DNA of 59,019 bases from Candidatus Hydrogenedentota bacterium. GTDB taxonomy: Bacteria; Hydrogenedentota; Hydrogenedentia; Hydrogenedentales; CAITNO01. The stretch is taken from positions 1 to 59,019 of the forward strand of contig JAAYBR010000110.1 in the NCBI GenBank assembly GCA_012730045.1, given 5' to 3'. A model generated the notes under the pieces. The model saw nothing but the letters and a program-made list of their open reading frames with translations. It was not told the DNA's origin and did not search any database. Position 1 is the stretch's first letter. Each line of letters starts with the position of its first letter. Below are positions 39,563-51,631 of the stretch, in pieces. The translations under genes were made by a program, and so were the position numbers.

Positions 39563-39727
39563 TCGGACCGATCGGTCGGATCCGACGGATCAGTCGGAGG
39601 GAGGGCGTTGGTCCGGCCTGTCTGACCTGTCCGACCCGTCCGACCCGTCTGACCCGTCCGACCTATCCGACCTGTCCGACCCGTCCGACCCGTCCGACCC
39701 GTCCGGCCTGTCTGACCTGTCCGCCGC
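39563..39727. repeat. 9-bp repeat array 7, sequence variant overlapping a CDS
   Basis: Thirteen right units of GTCCGACCY type (39611-39727) face four left units of TCGGACCGA/TCGGTCGGA type (39563-39598). The period and inverted layout match the GTCCAT arrays, but the core is GTCCGAC. The right arm lies inside the GT9 coding sequence and encodes a DxS-type tripeptide tail; the left arm covers the stop codon. Confidence 0.85.
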
Positions 39728-40774
39728 CTTTGCCGGCCGTCTCTCCGGCTTCAGCAGCCCCAGTCCGGCCTCCCAGGCCTCCTGCGGGGTGATCCGGGCG
39801 AGGAGTTCGGGGCCGCGGGCGCGGTCTATGGGCTTGTCGGGGGGGGTGTCGCCGCCGTAGAGCACGGCGCAGGGGGGGCGCAGGGGGCTGTGCATGCGGG
39901 GGTCGGTGCCGCCGAAAAGGCCGACCACGGGGACGTTTACCGCCGAGGCGATGTGCATGGGGCCGGTGTCGCCGCCGATGAACAGGTCGCTGCGCAGCAG
40001 GAGCGCCGCCAGATGCTTCAGCGTGGGGGTTTCGGGCGCGATTTCGGGGTTGCGCCTGGCGAGGGACTGGACCTTCTCCACGACCCCGCGCTGCCCCGGC
40101 GCCCAGGTCAGCAGCACCTCGAAGCGCCCGTCGGCGAGCAGCAGGTCCGCCAGGGCGGCGAAATGCGTCAGGGGCCACTGCTTCTCGGCGCGGTCCACCG
40201 GCGCGTGCAGCACCACCAGGCGCTTGCCGCCGTGGAACTTGTCCGTGAGGTACTCGTCCACCTCGTCCTGGACGGCGTCGGGAATCTCGATTTCGACCTC
40301 GAGGTTGAGGCGCTTCGCGCCGAAGACCCTCACCAGCTCCAGGTTTTCCTCGATGCGGTTCATCCGCGCGGCGGGGAGCCGGACCCGCTGGCTGGCGAAG
40401 AGGGCGCTGCCCTCCTGGCTGCGGGGGCGGGCGAAGGCGACGCGCTTCCGGGCGAGCGAGGCGCCCATGATCAGGCCGCTTTTGGCGATGCCGTGGAAGT
40501 CGAAGACGACGTCATAGCGGTTGCGGCGGATTTCACGGCAGAACCGGAGAAAGGCGGTCGTGGCGGACCAGGCGTCGTCCGGACGGGGGAACACGATGAC
40601 CCGGTCCAGCGCGGGGTGCCCCTCCAGGATGCCCGCGCTCTTCGGCTCGACGGCCCAGTCAATCTGGGCGTGGGGGTGCAGGTCGCGCAGGGCATGCAGC
40701 GCCGGCAGCACGCGCACCACGTCGCCGATGGCGCTCAGGCGGATGATCAGGATGCGGGGCACGCCGTTGAGCAT
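39590..40774 (-). CDS. Family 9 glycosyltransferase (heptosyltransferase-like) with repeat-encoded tail
   Basis: A 394-residue GT-B enzyme of the lipopolysaccharide heptosyltransferase family. It opens with RILIIRLSAIGDVVRVLPAL and contains the nucleotide-sugar site DLFIGGDTGPMHIASA with VVGLFGGTDP (about 257-290). The start is set at the ATG at 40774; a GTG at 40804 is possible. The last ~43 residues are a low-complexity chain of Asp-Gly-Ser / Asp-Arg-Ser triplets encoded by 9-bp repeat array 7. This tail is absent from ordinary family members and likely arose by repeat invasion of the 3' end. The function is addition of a sugar to an outer-membrane glycolipid core. Confidence 0.9.
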   Translation of the reverse strand: MLNGVPRILIIRLSAIGDVVRVLPALHALRDLHPHAQIDWAVEPKSAGILEGHPALDRVIVFPRPDDAWSATTAFLRFCREIRRNRYDVVFDFHGIAKSGLIMGASLARKRVAFARPRSQEGSALFASQRVRLPAARMNRIEENLELVRVFGAKRLNLEVEIEIPDAVQDEVDEYLTDKFHGGKRLVVLHAPVDRAEKQWPLTHFAALADLLLADGRFEVLLTWAPGQRGVVEKVQSLARRNPEIAPETPTLKHLAALLLRSDLFIGGDTGPMHIASAVNVPVVGLFGGTDPRMHSPLRPPCAVLYGGDTPPDKPIDRARGPELLARITPQEAWEAGLGLLKPERRPAKAADRSDRPDGSDGSDGSDRSDRSDGSDGSDGSDRSDRPDQRPPSD

Positions 40775-40876
40775 GAACGGGTTCCGGACGGTTGGGGCGG
40801 GCACCCCCCGGAGGACGGCATGCCCGCCCGTGAGAGGATGCGGGACAGGCGCGGCGCCCGGCCCGGAAATTCAAAA

Positions 40877-44645: not shown

Positions 44646-44705
44646 GGCCCATGAACACGGACCCGCACGGACAAACCACCGACGTACACGGACACCCCGG
44701 CGCGC
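44646..44705. repeat. CACGGA-type degenerate array
   Basis: Spaced CACGGAC elements (GAACACGGACCCGCACGGAC, then ACACGGACACC) resemble the arms at 56570-56607 and 56711-56749. It lies in the 295-bp gap between the MBL and NifX-like genes. No gene visible. Confidence 0.55.
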
Positions 44706-44722
44706 GAGCGCCCGACCCTGTC

Positions 44723-44814
44723 CGTCATTCCCGCGAAAGCGGGAACCCATCTTGTGTCAGCGGGTTATGCCGCGCGTCCAAGGCATGGACCCCCGCCTTC
44801 GCGGGGGTGACGGG
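44723..44814. repeat. REP-like palindromic element
   Basis: The left half has ATTCCCGCGAAAGCGGGAA, the right half CCCCGCCTTCGCGGGGG followed by TGACGG, in inverted order around a ~45-bp centre. This is the palindromic intergenic sequence found in many Proteobacteria and other phyla (dRS3/RAYT-associated style). Confidence 0.75.
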
Positions 44815-44920
44815 AGGGGCGGATATCCAAGGATACCCGGTTGCCGCCTTTTCGTTGCTTTCTTGATGGGCCCTGTTCAAAGGGGAAACCAAAACAGCCC
44901 ACAGGGCAGTCCGCAGATGC

Positions 44921-45259
44921 TCAATGGTCGCAGGCGTTCTGGCCCGTTTCCAGGGACTGGGCGAGGAAGGCCGCCACGAGGGTTTCCGGTTCCTCGGCGG
45001 GGGTGCCCGTCACGACCTCAATGCCCTGGGCGTCGAAGAGCATCAGGGCGCGCTGGCCCATGCCGCCAGCGAGGATGACATTCACCTTTTTCTCGCCCAG
45101 CCACCGGGGCAGCAGCCCGGGCTCGTGGGGCGGCGGGGTCACGTTTTCCCGCGAGAGGATCTTGCCCGTGTCCGGGTCCGCGTCAATGAGGGCGAACTGC
45201 TCGCAGTGGCCGAAATGCTGGGCCAGTCTTCCGTCCGCCAGGGGGATTGCGATGCGCAT
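44921..45259 (-). CDS. NifX/NifB-type cofactor-binding protein (orange-protein-like)
   Basis: A 112-residue protein of the dinitrogenase iron-molybdenum cofactor biosynthesis family (PF02579 type): MRIAIPLADGRLAQHFGHCEQFALID at the start, GMGQRALMLFDAQGIEVVTG in the core, and a Cys-His tail (NACDH). Its size matches the ~118-residue orange protein of Desulfovibrio, which holds a Mo-Cu-sulfide cluster. Its ATG overlaps the stop of the NifU-like gene (TGATG), so translation is coupled. It is the last gene of the cluster. Metal content is inferred. Confidence 0.87.
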   Translation of the reverse strand: MRIAIPLADGRLAQHFGHCEQFALIDADPDTGKILSRENVTPPPHEPGLLPRWLGEKKVNVILAGGMGQRALMLFDAQGIEVVTGTPAEEPETLVAAFLAQSLETGQNACDH

Positions 45260-45690
45260 CAGTCATTCTCCTTTTTCGTTGGGGGTTTAAGCGCGATGCC
45301 TCGGGACTTCGCCCAGGCAAGGTAATCTTCACAGGCCGCCCGCAGCGTGTTCGCCGAGAGCAGCGCGCAGTGGCGGGCGGCCTCCGGAAGGCCGCCCAGC
45401 GCCGCCAGGACATGCTCCTGCTGGATGCCCATGACAGTGTCGAGGGCGCGCCCCCGCGCGAGGCAGGTCGTCATGCTGCCCGCCGCCAGGGAGGAGCCGC
45501 AGCCCGTCGTGGTGAAGGACGCGTCCTCCACGAGGCCGTTCCACACGGCGACCCAGAACTCCATCGTGTCGCCGCAGGGCCCGGTGATCCGCGCGTTGCC
45601 GTTGTAGTCCTCCAGCGGCCCGTAGTTGCGCGGCGCGGCCGCGTGCTCCTGCGCCGTCGGCGAGAAGGCGCCGTGTCCCTCGGTTTCCAT
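45259..45690 (-). CDS. NifU/IscU-like Fe-S scaffold protein
   Basis: A 143-residue scaffold. After a short leader it has the IscU-type APRNYGPL segment, then three ligand Cys in GPCGDTM, TTGCGSSLAAGSM and RHCALLS, all in the canonical order. It is divergent from housekeeping IscU and carries no C-terminal NifU domain. Its place between a MinD-like ATPase and a NifX-like protein suggests it supplies Fe-S clusters to this complex. ATG at 45690, 5 bp after the ATPase stop. Confidence 0.88.
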   Translation of the reverse strand: METEGHGAFSPTAQEHAAAPRNYGPLEDYNGNARITGPCGDTMEFWVAVWNGLVEDASFTTTGCGSSLAAGSMTTCLARGRALDTVMGIQQEHVLAALGGLPEAARHCALLSANTLRAACEDYLAWAKSRGIALKPPTKKEND

Positions 45691-45695
45691 GTGTT

Positions 45696-46577
45696 TTATC
45701 CCTCCGTTAATGCCAGTTGCCGCCATAGCGCCCGGATGTCCTCCGCGCCGGGGGTGTCCGTCTCCACGGCGGACAGGCCCCGGAGCTGCGCCCGCGTGAC
45801 GCCCGCATCGTAGCGGATGCGGCCTGCGGGCTCGGCGCCCCTCTCCCGCGCGCGCCCCTCGATGCGGTCCGCCACCCCGGGGTTGATGTCCCACTTGTTC
45901 ACGCAGACCGACGCGGGGATCTTGAAATGGTCCGCCAGTGCCAGCACGCGCTCCAGGTCGTGCTCTCCGGATACGGTCGGCTCGGTGACCACGAGCACCC
46001 GCGACGCGCCGGTCACGGACGCGATGACGGGGCAGCCGATGCCCGGCGGGCCGTCCACAATCACCAGCTCCCGGCCCTGCTCCTCCGCGACGCGCGCCGC
46101 CTCGCGGCGGACCGTGGAGACGAGCTTGCCGGAGTTCTCCGCCGCCGTGCCGAGGCGCGCGTGGACCATCGGGCCGCACCGGGTGCCGGACACCATCCAG
46201 ACGCCGCAGTTGCGCTCGGGGAAATCAATCGCGCCGACGGGGCAAAACCGCACGCAGACGCCGCAGCCCTCGCAGGCCGCCGGGTCTATGGTGAACACGG
46301 CGTCCCCCGCGCCCCGGCCGTTCCTGCGCACGGCCCCGTAGCGGCAGTGGGCCAGGCAGCCCCCGCAGGCGACACAGTCGGCCTGGCGGATGACCGCCCC
46401 GTTGCCGCTGAAAAAGTCGTGCCGTTCGCGGACCTGCGGCGGGAGAATCAGGTGCAGGTCCGCCGCGTCCACGTCGCAGTCCGCCAGCACGGCGTTCCCC
46501 GCGAGAACGGCGAGCGACGCCGTCACGCTGGTCTTGCCCGTGCCGCCCTTGCCGCTGATAACCACCAGTTCCCTCAT
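45696..46577 (-). CDS. MinD-superfamily P-loop ATPase with inserted ferredoxin domain (1)
   Basis: A 293-residue cytoplasmic ATPase. The deviant Walker A is SGKGGTGKTS (about 8-17), followed by DCDVDAADLHL. Residues about 65-125 are an inserted 2[4Fe-4S] ferredoxin domain with CVACGGCLAHC and CEGCGVCVRFCP. The Walker B-like VDGPPGIGCPVIAS and the VTEPTVSGEHDLERVL switch follow. This is the Mrp/MinD type found in Desulfovibrio orange-protein complexes (DVU2103/2104 type), where it couples ATP use to metal-cluster handling. Its ATG overlaps the previous stop by four bases (ATGA). Confidence 0.93.
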   Translation of the reverse strand: MRELVVISGKGGTGKTSVTASLAVLAGNAVLADCDVDAADLHLILPPQVRERHDFFSGNGAVIRQADCVACGGCLAHCRYGAVRRNGRGAGDAVFTIDPAACEGCGVCVRFCPVGAIDFPERNCGVWMVSGTRCGPMVHARLGTAAENSGKLVSTVRREAARVAEEQGRELVIVDGPPGIGCPVIASVTGASRVLVVTEPTVSGEHDLERVLALADHFKIPASVCVNKWDINPGVADRIEGRARERGAEPAGRIRYDAGVTRAQLRGLSAVETDTPGAEDIRALWRQLALTEG

Positions 46578-47449
46578 GCGGCGCCCTCCGCGCGCGCGAG
46601 GGCGGTTTCGAGCAGGGCCGCAAAGAGGGGGCGGTACTCCGGCAGGGCGTCCACGATGAGTTCGCCGCGGGAGTAGGCCTCGGCGATCCGCCGGTCGTCG
46701 GGGATCTCCGCATATACGGGCACGTTCTCCCGCGCGCAGTAGTCGTGCACCCGGGTGTCGCCCGATCCCATGCGGTTGACCACGACACCGAAGGGGCGGT
46801 CCAGCGTGCGGACCGTGTCCACGGCGAGGGCCAGGTCGTTCAGGCCGAAGGGCGTGGGCTCCGTCACCAGCACCACGACGTCCGCGTCGCGGAGCGTCGC
46901 GATGACGGGGCACGAGGTGCCCGGCGGCGCGTCCAGGATCACCAGTCCGCCGCCCGCGGCGTGGCGCTTGACGGCGTGGATGAGCGGCGGGGCCATGGCG
47001 CGCCCCACGTCGAGGCGCCCCTGCACGAGGGTGATGTCCCCGGCGCGCAGGGTCTCCACCACGCCGATGCGGTGGTCCTTCTCGGTGATGGCGCCGCGGG
47101 GGCAGACCTTCATGCACCCGCCGCAGCCGTGGCACATGTCCTGAAAGACCAGGGGCGGCCCGCCAAAGCAGGCCAGGGCGTTGTAGGCGCAAAACCGCGC
47201 GCACTCGCCGCAGCCGTCGCACAGGGCGGGGTCCACCCGGGGCACCGGAATGCCCGCCGTCTCCTCCGCCAGCAGCTCCGCCTTGAGGAAGAGGTGGGCG
47301 TTTGGCTCCTCCACATCGCAGTCGAGCAGCCGAACCCCCGCGCCCGCGGTCCGCGCCAGGTTGAGCGACACCGTCGTTTTGCCGGTGCCGCCCTTTCCCG
47401 ACGCGACCGCGATGACGCGGGGTCTGTTCTGTTGCGGAAAGGCGCTCAC
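46574..47449 (-). CDS. MinD-superfamily P-loop ATPase with inserted ferredoxin domain (2)
   Basis: A 291-residue paralogue of the following gene. The Walker A is SGKGGTGKTT (about 19-28) and LLDCDVEEPNAHLF follows. The inserted ferredoxin segment has CDGCGECARFCAYNAL and CHGCGGCMKVCPRGAI. LDAPPGTSCPVIATL and TEPTPFGLNDLALAV complete the ATPase. Two adjacent copies are the rule in such clusters and probably form a heterodimer. The GTG start at 47449 overlaps the NifX-like stop by four bases (GTGA), so it is translationally coupled. Confidence 0.93.
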   Translation of the reverse strand: MSAFPQQNRPRVIAVASGKGGTGKTTVSLNLARTAGAGVRLLDCDVEEPNAHLFLKAELLAEETAGIPVPRVDPALCDGCGECARFCAYNALACFGGPPLVFQDMCHGCGGCMKVCPRGAITEKDHRIGVVETLRAGDITLVQGRLDVGRAMAPPLIHAVKRHAAGGGLVILDAPPGTSCPVIATLRDADVVVLVTEPTPFGLNDLALAVDTVRTLDRPFGVVVNRMGSGDTRVHDYCARENVPVYAEIPDDRRIAEAYSRGELIVDALPEYRPLFAALLETALARAEGAA

Positions 47450-47808
47450 ACCCAGTGCCCCTCGACGTCCGGCGCGTCGGCCTCGGCCAGCGCGCCCGCG
47501 ACGTACTGCTCCAGGGCCTCGCCCACCGTCGCGGCGGCGCAGGGGTAAATCTTCACCCCCGCCGCCGACAGCACGCGGAAGGCCTTGGGGCCGCAGTGGC
47601 CGGAGACCAGCGCGCCCGCCCCCAGCTTCGCCACGGCCTGCGCGGACTGGATGCCCGCGCCCTGCGCCGCGTTCAGGTTTTGCACGTTGTCGGCCACCTC
47701 GAAGGCGCCGCTGTCCAGGTCGTAGACCAGGAACTTCGGCGCGCGTCCGAAGCGCTGCTCCAGGGGCGCGGAGAGGTCGTCGCCGCTGGTGGTGAAGGCG
47801 ACCTTCAT
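47446..47808 (-). CDS. NifX/NifB-type cofactor-binding protein (second)
   Basis: A 120-residue protein of the same fold as the one ending at 44921: MKVAFTTSGDDLSAPLEQRFGRAPKFLVYD, then LVSGHCGPKAFRVLSAAGVKIY with a conserved GHCG. Family members bind Fe-Mo-type or other metal-sulfide clusters. It is enclosed by coupled genes (ATGA with DUF5320, GTGA with the ATPase), so the products are probably made in equal amounts. Confidence 0.9.
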   Translation of the reverse strand: MKVAFTTSGDDLSAPLEQRFGRAPKFLVYDLDSGAFEVADNVQNLNAAQGAGIQSAQAVAKLGAGALVSGHCGPKAFRVLSAAGVKIYPCAAATVGEALEQYVAGALAEADAPDVEGHWV

Positions 47809-48146
47809 TCCCCACCCTCCTTCCCCGCCAGCGCCTCCAGCCGCCGCAGCACCGTCTCCAGCCCGGCCTGGAGGGCGCTCACCTGTCCGCGCAGCAGCTG
47901 CGTCTCCGTTTCCGGGGCCGCCGCCGGCGCCGCGCCGAAGCGCTGCCATCCCGGGAGCCCCGTGGCGAGAAACATGTTGCGCCGGCCGCGTCTGCGGCCA
48001 CCGCCGCAGCCCGCGCCCCGGCCAAAGCCCCTGCCGCCGCCCGCCGGGTTCATGAACCCGGGGCGGTCGTTCCCCGCGCAGCGTCCGGCCGCGCGTCCGG
48101 TCTTGGGACCCATTCCGAGGGGGCCCGTCCTGTCGCCTCTTGGCAT
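47805..48146 (-). CDS. DUF5320-domain protein
   Basis: A 113-residue protein. Its N-terminal half is the DUF5320 signature PRGDRTGPLGMGPKTGRAAG followed by C...PGFMNP, then a Gly/Arg-rich stretch. The C-terminal ~35 residues are a short coiled coil (LLRGQVSALQAGLETVLRRLEAL). DUF5320 genes nearly always accompany NifX-like and MinD-like genes in anaerobes, but their role is unknown. GGAGG sits 9 bases before the ATG at 48146. Confidence 0.9.
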   Translation of the reverse strand: MPRGDRTGPLGMGPKTGRAAGRCAGNDRPGFMNPAGGGRGFGRGAGCGGGRRRGRRNMFLATGLPGWQRFGAAPAAAPETETQLLRGQVSALQAGLETVLRRLEALAGKEGGE

Positions 48147-48183: not shown

Positions 48184-48690
48184 TCAGATCCTGGTCATGG
48201 CCGCGCCGCACTTCGGGCACTGCCGGGTGACGCAGGGAACACCGCGCTCATGCGGGAGCCGGTGGCCGCAGGCGGGGCACACACACTCCCCGCCCTGGCC
48301 GCATCCGCCGCCCATGCCGCCCTGGCCGCAGCCCCGCCCCTGCCTCCGTCCCCGCCCGCAGCATCCCGGCATGGCGAAGCGCTCCCCGTCAAGGGTGTTT
48401 CCCAGCCACGCCCGCACGACCGCACCGGTCTCCCCCGTGACGAAGGGCACCACCTCAATCCCCTGCGAGGCGATGAGCTGGTGCAGGGGCCGGGAAATGG
48501 CCCCGCAGACGAGGATGCCGACCCCCAGCTCCGTCAGACGCCCCGCGATCCGGTGCGGATCGTCCGGGGGCAGGGATTCCAGCGATTCGCCGGTAACGGT
48601 AGTCCCATCGCTCTCCACCAGCCGCAACTGGCGGGCCGTGTCAAACACGGGGGCGATGCGGTCTTCCCAGATGGCAAAGGCGGTTTTCAT
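48184..48690 (-). CDS. NifX-type protein with C-terminal zinc ribbon
   Basis: A 168-residue protein and the first gene of the cluster. Residues 1-110 are a NifX-like domain (MKTAFAIWEDRIAPVFDTAR, GILVCGAISRPLHQLIASQGIEVV). A Gly/Arg/Cys linker (CCGRGRRQGRGCGQGG) follows. The C-terminus is a zinc-ribbon- or rubredoxin-like knuckle pair, CPACGHRL and CPKCGAAM. A sigma-54 promoter lies immediately upstream, so close that its transcript would begin at or next to the ATG. The metal-binding tail is an unusual addition. Confidence 0.88.
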   Translation of the reverse strand: MKTAFAIWEDRIAPVFDTARQLRLVESDGTTVTGESLESLPPDDPHRIAGRLTELGVGILVCGAISRPLHQLIASQGIEVVPFVTGETGAVVRAWLGNTLDGERFAMPGCCGRGRRQGRGCGQGGMGGGCGQGGECVCPACGHRLPHERGVPCVTRQCPKCGAAMTRI

Positions 48691-48701
48691 GCCTTTATAG
48701 G

Positions 48702-48717
48702 GGCAAGAACCGGGCCA
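48702..48717 (-). promoter_or_regulatory. Sigma-54 (-24/-12) promoter of the ORP-like operon
   Basis: On the minus strand TGGCCCGGTTCTTGC matches the -24/-12 consensus (TGGCACG-N4-TTGC) at all but one position, with exact GG-N10-GC spacing. The expected start lies at about 48690-48693, i.e. at the ATG at 48690, implying a nearly leaderless mRNA. Confidence 0.65.
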
Positions 48718-48742
48718 TGAAATGCCAAAGGATGGCACATAA

Positions 48743-48771
48743 CACAAGCCGTGTCATAAGAATGGCTTGTG
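48743..48771. promoter_or_regulatory. Inverted repeat, likely activator-binding site
   Basis: CACAAGCC and GGCTTGTG form a perfect 8-bp inverted repeat with a 13-bp spacer, centred about 66 bp upstream of the predicted sigma-54 start. This is where the enhancer-binding protein encoded just upstream could act. Confidence 0.5.
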
Positions 48772-48874
48772 AGTATAAGGAATTTCCGTAAAGACGTGGC
48801 ATGGATGCGCTGGCGCGTCTATATAGGGCATTTTATAGGTGCGCTGACGCTACGACAGCGCCGTTCTGGCCAGA

Positions 48875-48960
48875 AGACAAGGCCGCCGGGACGGCGGCGC
48901 TACATAGCGGCGACCGTCGGGCCTCTCTTCCGTAGCGCAGCCGTCCCGGCTGCCTTGTCT
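48875..48960. repeat. 29-bp imperfect inverted repeat
   Basis: Arms 48875-48903 and 48932-48960 match at 27 of 29 positions. It lies between the activator gene and its target operon. A half copy occurs at about 17887-17915, so this is another dispersed family. It could also attenuate read-through from the activator gene. Confidence 0.85.
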
Positions 48961-48974
48961 TTCCGCTTTCCGGG

Positions 48975-50356
<1,382 letters not shown>

Positions 50357-50360
<4 letters not shown>

Positions 50361-51631
50361 AGGCGGAAGAACTCCATCGCGTTCTCGCGGAGGATGCGCG
50401 CGGCGATCCGCTTCGCCTCGTCCAGGGAAAACGCGCCCCCGTCCACCTTGTCCGCCAGCATGCGCGCGGCCACGCGCCGGGCGATGGCGCAGTGGCCGTA
50501 GGCGCCCTCGGCGTAGTTGCTGTCGCCGCCGACGGCGAAGATCTTGTTGGACGGGATGACGTCAAGCCACTCGTCGAGGATGCGCGCGGCGGACGCGGGG
50601 GACACCACCTGGATCCAGCACAGGTCGGCGTAGACGTTGGGAAAATACTTGGCGAGGGCGGCCGTCTCGCCCGCCCACGGCCAGCCCGCGTGGAACAGCG
50701 CGAAGCGCGCGTCCGGGAAGTCCATAATCAGGTCCGTCAGGAGCAGGGGGTGCGAGTTTTCCAGATGGTTGCCGTTGCCCTCCTGGAGGCCCGTGTGGAT
50801 CTGGACCGGCAGGCCGCGCTCCGCCGCCAGCGCGACGATGCGGCGCATGACGAAGTCCTGGAGGGGTTTCAGGTCGTCCTGCGACAGGTCGAGGGCTTGC
50901 GAGAGCCACACCCGGTCAAAGGCGCGGGCCGCCTCGGCCTTCGGGACCCGGTCAAAGCGCAGGCTGCGGCGGTAGGCCAGGAAAATCTTCACGGCCACAA
51001 TGCCCTCTTTAACAAAACCATCCAGCCGCGCCTCCAGCGCCGCCAGCAGCTGGTCCAGCGTCTGGATCGCGCGGCCCGTCTCCGCCTCCAGGGCGTTCAG
51101 CTCGGCCCGCGTGGACACCATGGCGAAGTGGTCCAGAATCGGCACAGCGCGGAACAGCTCGCGGTCCACCGCCACCGACTGCCCCGGCCACCGGATCACC
51201 AGCGCGCGGTCAATCCCCGCCTTCTCCCGCAGGACCGTGCGGTACCAGCCCGGCTTCCGCGCGGCGCGGATGCGGTCGCACAGGGCCCCGATGGTGTCGC
51301 GCCCGATCTCCGCCACGCCGAAGAGGTCGGTCATGTATTCGGCCATCGCGCGGCCGTAGCCCGTCGTGCGGACATGGGGCCACCACGGCGCGACGAGGTC
51401 CCAGCGCTCCACGTCCGACAACCCGTTCCCCGCCGTGCGCACCCGTTCCAGCGTCTCCCGGGGCATCCCCGCCGACACGAAATCCGACGAGACATAATGC
51501 TCCAGAAACCCGAAAAAGCCCAGCGTGTCCGCGCAGGCCACCACCTCGTCCGGGATGTGCTCATGCGTGTCCACCACCCGCAGGGCGGTGATGAAGGAGG
51601 AAAGCTCCTCAAAAGCGGCGGTCTGTGCCAT
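50357..51631 (-). CDS. Amidohydrolase-superfamily protein (uronate isomerase-like)
   Basis: A 424-residue TIM-barrel metal enzyme. Ligands are visible in VVDTHEHIPDE (about residue 20), the Lys-bearing VAVKIFLAY strand, LPVQIHTGLQEGNG (about 275), FALFHAGWPW (about 310) and VGGDSNY (about 365). The overall length and layout resemble the amidohydrolase-2/glucuronate isomerase group, so a C-C or sugar-isomerising role is possible. ATG at 51631. It precedes and overlaps the sigma-54 activator gene, an arrangement with no obvious functional reason. Divergent to the beta-lactamase-fold gene across array 8. Confidence 0.85.

Follow-up and report, generated by a model that had tools for sequence, protein, structure and literature searches.

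The ORP-like gene set on the minus strand of the window (the whole stretch of DNA analysed, 59,019 nucleotides) very probably, judging from sequence comparison, owes its expression to sigma-54 and the activator encoded next to it, and the message of its first gene, nifX1, is predicted to be leaderless or nearly so. The explanation as a whole, which we consider likely, combines sigma-54 and an activator acting at degenerate tandem sites with a transcription start at about 48691 and a leaderless, or nearly leaderless, ORP-like message. A preliminary description of this DNA had proposed a sigma-54 promoter, an adjoining activator, an ORP-like cluster and a start abutting the ATG; all of these were recovered or, in the case of the start, upheld by comparison, and rpoN, the presence of which it had named as a check, was found. 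Its assignment of an inverted repeat as the activator site was not supported.

The cluster consists of the following genes:

48184-48690, minus strand: nifX1, first gene of the cluster, a Nitro_FeMo-Co (Di-Nase) domain protein (PF02579, E 3.6e-08)
47805-48146, minus strand: DUF5320 protein (PF17253, E 3.9e-24)
47446-47808, minus strand: nifX2, a Nitro_FeMo-Co domain protein (PF02579, E 4.2e-22)
46574-47449, minus strand: MinD/ParA-type ATPase with 4Fe-4S ferredoxin insert 1, Orp3/Orp4-like (CbiA, Fer4)
45696-46577, minus strand: MinD/ParA-type ATPase with 4Fe-4S ferredoxin insert 2, Orp3/Orp4-like (CbiA, Fer4)
45259-45690, minus strand: NifU_N (IscU-like scaffold) protein (PF01592, E 4e-24)
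44921-45259, minus strand: nifX3, a stand-alone Di-Nase domain (PF02579, E 2.5e-20)

All of these genes are open and intact, and all follow the activator on the minus strand. By its domain content (two MinD/ferredoxin ATPases, three PF02579 proteins, NifU_N and DUF5320) the cluster is ORP-like, as previously claimed; this name was chosen because full-length MrpORP and the divergent layout are both missing. No full-length MrpORP scored above the family cut-off in the genome, where the best matches are partial. The nifX3 protein resembles the C-terminal half of MrpORP, with the HFGHCE and terminal CDH motifs, and matches NF041136 (E 2.6e-37) at model positions 265-364 only. Relatives of the ATPase at 45696-46577, 54-73% identical, occur in many phyla, and nifX1 orthologs begin at the same residue as nifX1 of the window. 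Beyond the cluster, the interval between nifX3 and the next gene, which encodes a metallo-beta-lactamase-fold protein, carries GC-rich inverted repeats (44660-44900; e.g., CCCGCGAAGGCGGGGG and CCCGCTTTCGCGGG), and a heptosyltransferase-like ORF at 39590-40804 has a low-complexity SDGSDGSDRSD tail (39590-39800).

The promoter element and the start predicted from it lie directly before nifX1:

48717-48703, minus strand: sigma-54 -24/-12 element TGGCCCGGTTCTTGC (direct sequence reading and ortholog conservation)
48690-48692, minus strand: predicted transcription start, conventional +1 at 48691 (-24/-12 geometry and bimodal distances)

The element, of the form GG-N10-GC, had been described as nearly perfect, and it departs from TGGCACG-N4-TTGC at a single position, an A to C change in the -24 box (TGGCCC vs TGGCAC). 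The genome contains rpoN (PF04552, E 6.9e-58) in a 542-aa frame. The genome-wide frequency of the string was dropped as evidence, since TGGCMCG-N4-TTGC gave 6 matches and the reversed control pattern was commoner, with 11; the string alone is not above chance. The significance of TGGCCCGGTTCTTGC derives from its conservation at the same place in orthologs and from its rank, the fourth among promoter-region matches in 860 kb of the genome. Elements of the -24/-12 type occur at 70 loci, window included, in several phyla, with the activator adjoining nifX1; the window site scores 14.4 with the -24/-12 matrix and most orthologs score 15-20. By homology, TGGCCCGGTTCTTGC is a real, conserved -24/-12 element. 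No sigma-70-like promoter was found in 48600-49000.

Counting from the -12 C at 48703 places the conventional +1 at 48691, and since the ATG is located at 48690, the predicted leader is about 1 nt long (0-2 nt). The assumed geometry is supported by the Desulfovibrio vulgaris orp operons, whose start sites are 13 nt (orp1) and 11 nt (orp2) away from the sigma-54 sequence (PMC3897727). Translation of nifX1 starts with AUG, there is no Shine-Dalgarno sequence in the predicted leader, and a weak AAAGG is present 1 nt before the ATG.

The leader survey covered 70 loci from several phyla, window included, with a -24/-12 score of at least 10; they are not independent and include near-copies (e.g., L017/L018, L020/L023 and L270-L272). 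The start was shifted by one codon to an in-frame ATG before counting in L052, L073, L245, L276 and L279, and L012 was excluded, its best match not being a -24/-12 site. The spacing between the -12 C and the start codon has a bimodal distribution: 11-16 nt in 22 of the 70 loci, including the window with 12 nt, 17-21 nt in none, and 22 nt or more in 48. A cultured relative, Pontiella sulfatireligans (L078), falls in the short class with 13 nt. The threshold between the short and long classes was set after the distribution had been viewed, a choice that is uncritical because the interval of 17-21 nt is empty. No accepted site lies closer than 11 nt, a weak match at 7 nt (L228, score 6.9) having fallen under the cut, and a floor at 11 nt is the expectation if +1 sits 11-12 nt past the -12 C. 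A Shine-Dalgarno-like tetramer was present in the predicted leader of 36 of the 48 long-class loci and none of the 22 short-class loci; the latter result is partly by construction, since a leader of 0-5 nt has no room for it, but the missing intermediate lengths are not explained in this way. The second half of the sample, analysed with the matrix fixed beforehand, yielded the same two classes, with short cases at 12-15 nt. On the activator tree, the two leader classes require seven changes by parsimony, at least four of them forced by starred branches, and one well-supported clade of 11 loci is wholly short-class. The lower limit of 11 nt, together with the empty interval, may point to selection for either of two initiation modes, with none between them.

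Two peculiarities were observed among the surveyed loci. In the long-leader loci L005, L006, L008 and L009, representing few lineages, a mini-ORF upstream of nifX1 opens with an ATG that follows the -12 C by 12-18 nt and ends in the ATGA or GTGA that overlaps the start of nifX1; this mini-ORF might be leaderless and coupled to nifX1. In L012, the tandem sites and a -24/-12 element are kept beside the activator, and extra sequence precedes nifX1; its intergenic region is 460 nt long versus 218 nt in near-copies, pointing to an insertion or an assembly join.

For comparison with the rest of the genome, 40 stretches of 20 kb were used, and in about 860 kb of the genome genes were called by a simple codon-usage script trained on verified genes. 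Of the genes preceded by a gap, 41% have a Shine-Dalgarno tetramer at the usual place, as have 58% of the remaining genes, against 11-13% in a control stretch; these percentages are approximate because of the simple gene calls. In these 860 kb, the TANNNT motif at -13/-12, the expected mark of leaderless sigma-70 genes, was only faintly enriched. For the other four top-scoring sigma-54-like sites of the sample, themselves matrix matches only, the gap to the start codon is 58-83 nt.

Upstream of the promoter, two further features were identified:

48975-50360, minus strand: enhancer-binding protein, the predicted cluster activator (PF00158, E 1.9e-68; PAS_4; HTH_8)
48874-48961, no strand assigned: near-palindromic dispersed 88-bp repeat, a possible terminator of the activator transcript (copies, folding and terminator scan)

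The activator gene is complete, lies directly upstream of the promoter on the same strand, and encodes a PAS domain, a sigma-54 AAA+ domain with the GAFTGA motif (RGAFTGA) and a Fis-type HTH, in agreement with its earlier description as a cognate-looking activator. Its orthologs, mostly 55-78% identical, adjoin nifX1 in other Hydrogenedentota and in many phyla; this linkage was also found in records of candidate division WOR-3, Marinimicrobia, Pelobacter, Geobacter, Smithella, Aminicenantes, Planctomycetia, Pontiella and others, and in some relatives the two genes are divergent (L017, L018, L020, L023, L082). The named rows nearest to the window's activator on the activator tree come from other phyla, which suggests horizontal transfer of the cassette, although this quick tree has many weak forks and the indication is only suggestive. 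The GTG start of the activator gene and the stop of an amidohydrolase gene (50357-51631) share 4 nt, at 50357-50360; because of this overlap, the activator is probably co-expressed with this unrelated enzyme in the window's genome. Directly after the activator stop codon, between the activator gene and the candidate activator sites, lies the 88-bp repeat, which has dozens of dispersed copies in the genome, a very strong predicted hairpin (-64.9 kcal/mol) and terminator-like matches. It occupies the position held by the first activator site in some relatives, and its hairpin possibly terminates the activator transcript.

Most same-strand orthologous promoters carry two tandem palindromes of the form GTNGCA-N4-TGCNAC, about 32 bp apart (mostly 30-34 bp). 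Relatives with the recognition helix MHKSTLFRK have the variant GTCGCA-N4-TGCGAC, and many of the relatives closest to the window have GTAGCA-N4-TGCTAC, a pairing of helix and site types that was judged by eye. A tandem palindrome was not recognisable in some orthologs, including the short-leader loci L017, L018, L020, L021, L023, L062 and L082. A matrix trained on the orthologs, window excluded, was used for an unbiased scan of the window's intergenic region, and two candidates were obtained:

48853-48838, minus strand: candidate upstream activator site 1, GTAGCGTCAGCGCACC (ortholog matrix, score 10.1)
48819-48804, minus strand: candidate upstream activator site 2, GACGCGCCAGCGCATC (ortholog matrix, weak score of 3.2)

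The two sites are 34 bp apart, identical at 12 of 16 positions, and located at the orthologous distance from the promoter. Their pair score is below that of nearly all same-strand orthologs; it was matched by 0.18% of Markov-simulated sequences (p 0.0018), no real window segment out of 1942 reached it, and p falls to 0.0004 when positions are restricted as in the orthologs. The predicted activator site is this degenerate tandem pair at 48853-48804, a significant match.

The inverted repeat that the preliminary description had taken for the activator site is situated closer to the promoter:

48771-48764, minus strand: inverted repeat left arm CACAAGCC, without support as an activator site (sequence reading, matrix and ortholog comparison)
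48750-48743, minus strand: inverted repeat right arm GGCTTGTG (sequence reading, genome search and ortholog comparison)

The repeat itself is real: CACAAGCC-N13-GGCTTGTG is a perfect 8-bp dyad with a 13-nt spacer, read directly at the place described. Its centre precedes the predicted start by about 66 bp, and its half-site centres, 21 bp apart, would share one helix face, as would suit an activator binding at 48771-48743 and driving the -24/-12 promoter from there. This reading is nevertheless quite improbable, since no comparable repeat occurs in any of the 40 orthologous promoters examined, the region scores -11.7 with the ortholog activator-site matrix, and such a repeat is only weakly unusual by chance, arising in about 5% of Markov-simulated 183-nt regions and present in 110 of 622 (18%) real upstream regions of the genome. 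The exact repeat, which the preliminary description had suggested looking for upstream of other -24/-12 sites, occurs only once in the genome. Most likely, the inverted repeat is not the activator site. It was also considered as a terminator and rejected: its 8-bp stem (-11.7 kcal/mol) lacks a T-run and is absent from the terminator scan.

Other explanations concern the promoter and the start codon. Transcription of nifX1 could begin further upstream, at another promoter or by read-through from the activator gene, giving an ordinary leader and leaving the -24/-12 match inactive or minor; the imperfect -24 box, the lack of genome-wide enrichment of the string and the weak AAAGG would fit. We consider this unlikely given the positional conservation of the element at the 70 loci, the failure to find a sigma-70-like promoter in the interval scanned, and the strong terminator-like hairpin between the activator gene and nifX1, while AAAGG is too near the ATG for a normal Shine-Dalgarno role. 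A normal leader would also result if translation started at one of the in-frame GTG or TTG codons downstream (48648, 48627), but the orthologs align from the ATG onward (M-K/R-x-A) and a later start would therefore delete the first strand of the domain, making a misannotated start highly implausible. Finally, the dispersed repeat directly after the activator gene could have displaced or damaged the activator sites, with poor or constitutive expression in this strain, and the low pair score of the window is in line with such decay. This too seems improbable: the sites have kept their distance from the promoter, the pair remains significant, and every cluster gene is open and intact.

The preferred explanation, sigma-54 with an activator at the tandem pair, builds on features read from the sequence, namely the promoter element, rpoN, the activator domains and linkage, the tandem sites of orthologs together with the window pair, and the bimodal spacing. 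According to it, sigma-54 RNA polymerase would bind the -24/-12 element at 48717-48703, and the activator (48975-50360) would respond to a signal, probably via its PAS domain, bind the degenerate tandem pair (48853-48838 and 48819-48804), loop over from it and open the promoter. Transcription would begin at about 48691, with the nifX1 AUG at the 5' end or no more than about 2 nt from it, and the messenger of the ORP-like cluster would be translated as a leaderless or nearly leaderless one, without a Shine-Dalgarno sequence. The signal, binding to the tandem sites, the start position and leaderless translation are the steps that we infer, and the inverted repeat has no demonstrated role.

Activators keep sigma-54 transcription under tight control, and a message translated without a leader does without the usual ribosome-binding signal. 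One could tentatively propose, with the chances somewhat short of even, that sigma-54 promoters of ORP-type operons have repeatedly evolved a +1 at the start codon and form a conserved, activator-controlled leaderless class in Hydrogenedentota, Planctomycetota, Kiritimatiellota and other phyla, one or more of the genomes relying on Shine-Dalgarno sequences elsewhere. If this conserved combination is true, the transcription start and the translation start would be tied within one or two nucleotides, and the short-class promoters would offer a set for testing leaderless initiation by small spacing changes. The tandem GTNGCA-N4-TGCNAC palindromes, about 32 bp apart, provide a candidate activator-site motif for a widespread, little-studied anaerobic metal-cluster system.

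To our knowledge, no case links leaderless translation to sigma-54. Leaderless mRNAs are documented in Leptospira, Campylobacter, Bradyrhizobium, Sinorhizobium and others (PMC5243855, PMC3847290, PMC4842269, PMC3616915), and the nifX1 message, its 5' end being predicted only, would share with them an AUG at or within a few nucleotides of the 5' end and the lack of a Shine-Dalgarno sequence. However, the leaderless promoter motifs of Campylobacter and Bradyrhizobium are of the -10 type (PMC3847290, PMC4842269), whereas the window has a -24/-12 element and an activator. No paper on sigma-54-dependent leaderless messages was found in the open-licence literature, where supplementary tables of transcription start sites may contain cases.

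The closest known system is that of the D. vulgaris Hildenborough orp operons, activated by sigma-54, DVU2106 and IHF (PMC3897727, PMC4641369); the DVU2106 sequence itself was absent among the loci found. Both systems have ORP-type genes, two MinD/ferredoxin ATPases (Orp3 and Orp4) and single-domain Di-Nase (orange) proteins, as well as a sigma-54 promoter, a single-component activator within the cluster and upstream palindromic sites, which in the window are a candidate, degenerate pair. The D. vulgaris genes form two divergent operons, in contrast to the window, where a single operon follows the activator on its strand, and the D. vulgaris activator has the motif GAFTDA where that of the window has GAFTGA. 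MrpORP (Orp9) is a fusion of Mrp and Di-Nase domains (PMC6345978), of which nifX3 matches the Di-Nase half, the P-loop Mrp half being missing. The window differs from D. vulgaris in lacking full-length MrpORP and in the immediate contact between start codon and predicted start site. That sigma-54 controls ORP-type genes was already established in D. vulgaris; a leaderless sigma-54 arrangement appears to be a variant not yet described.
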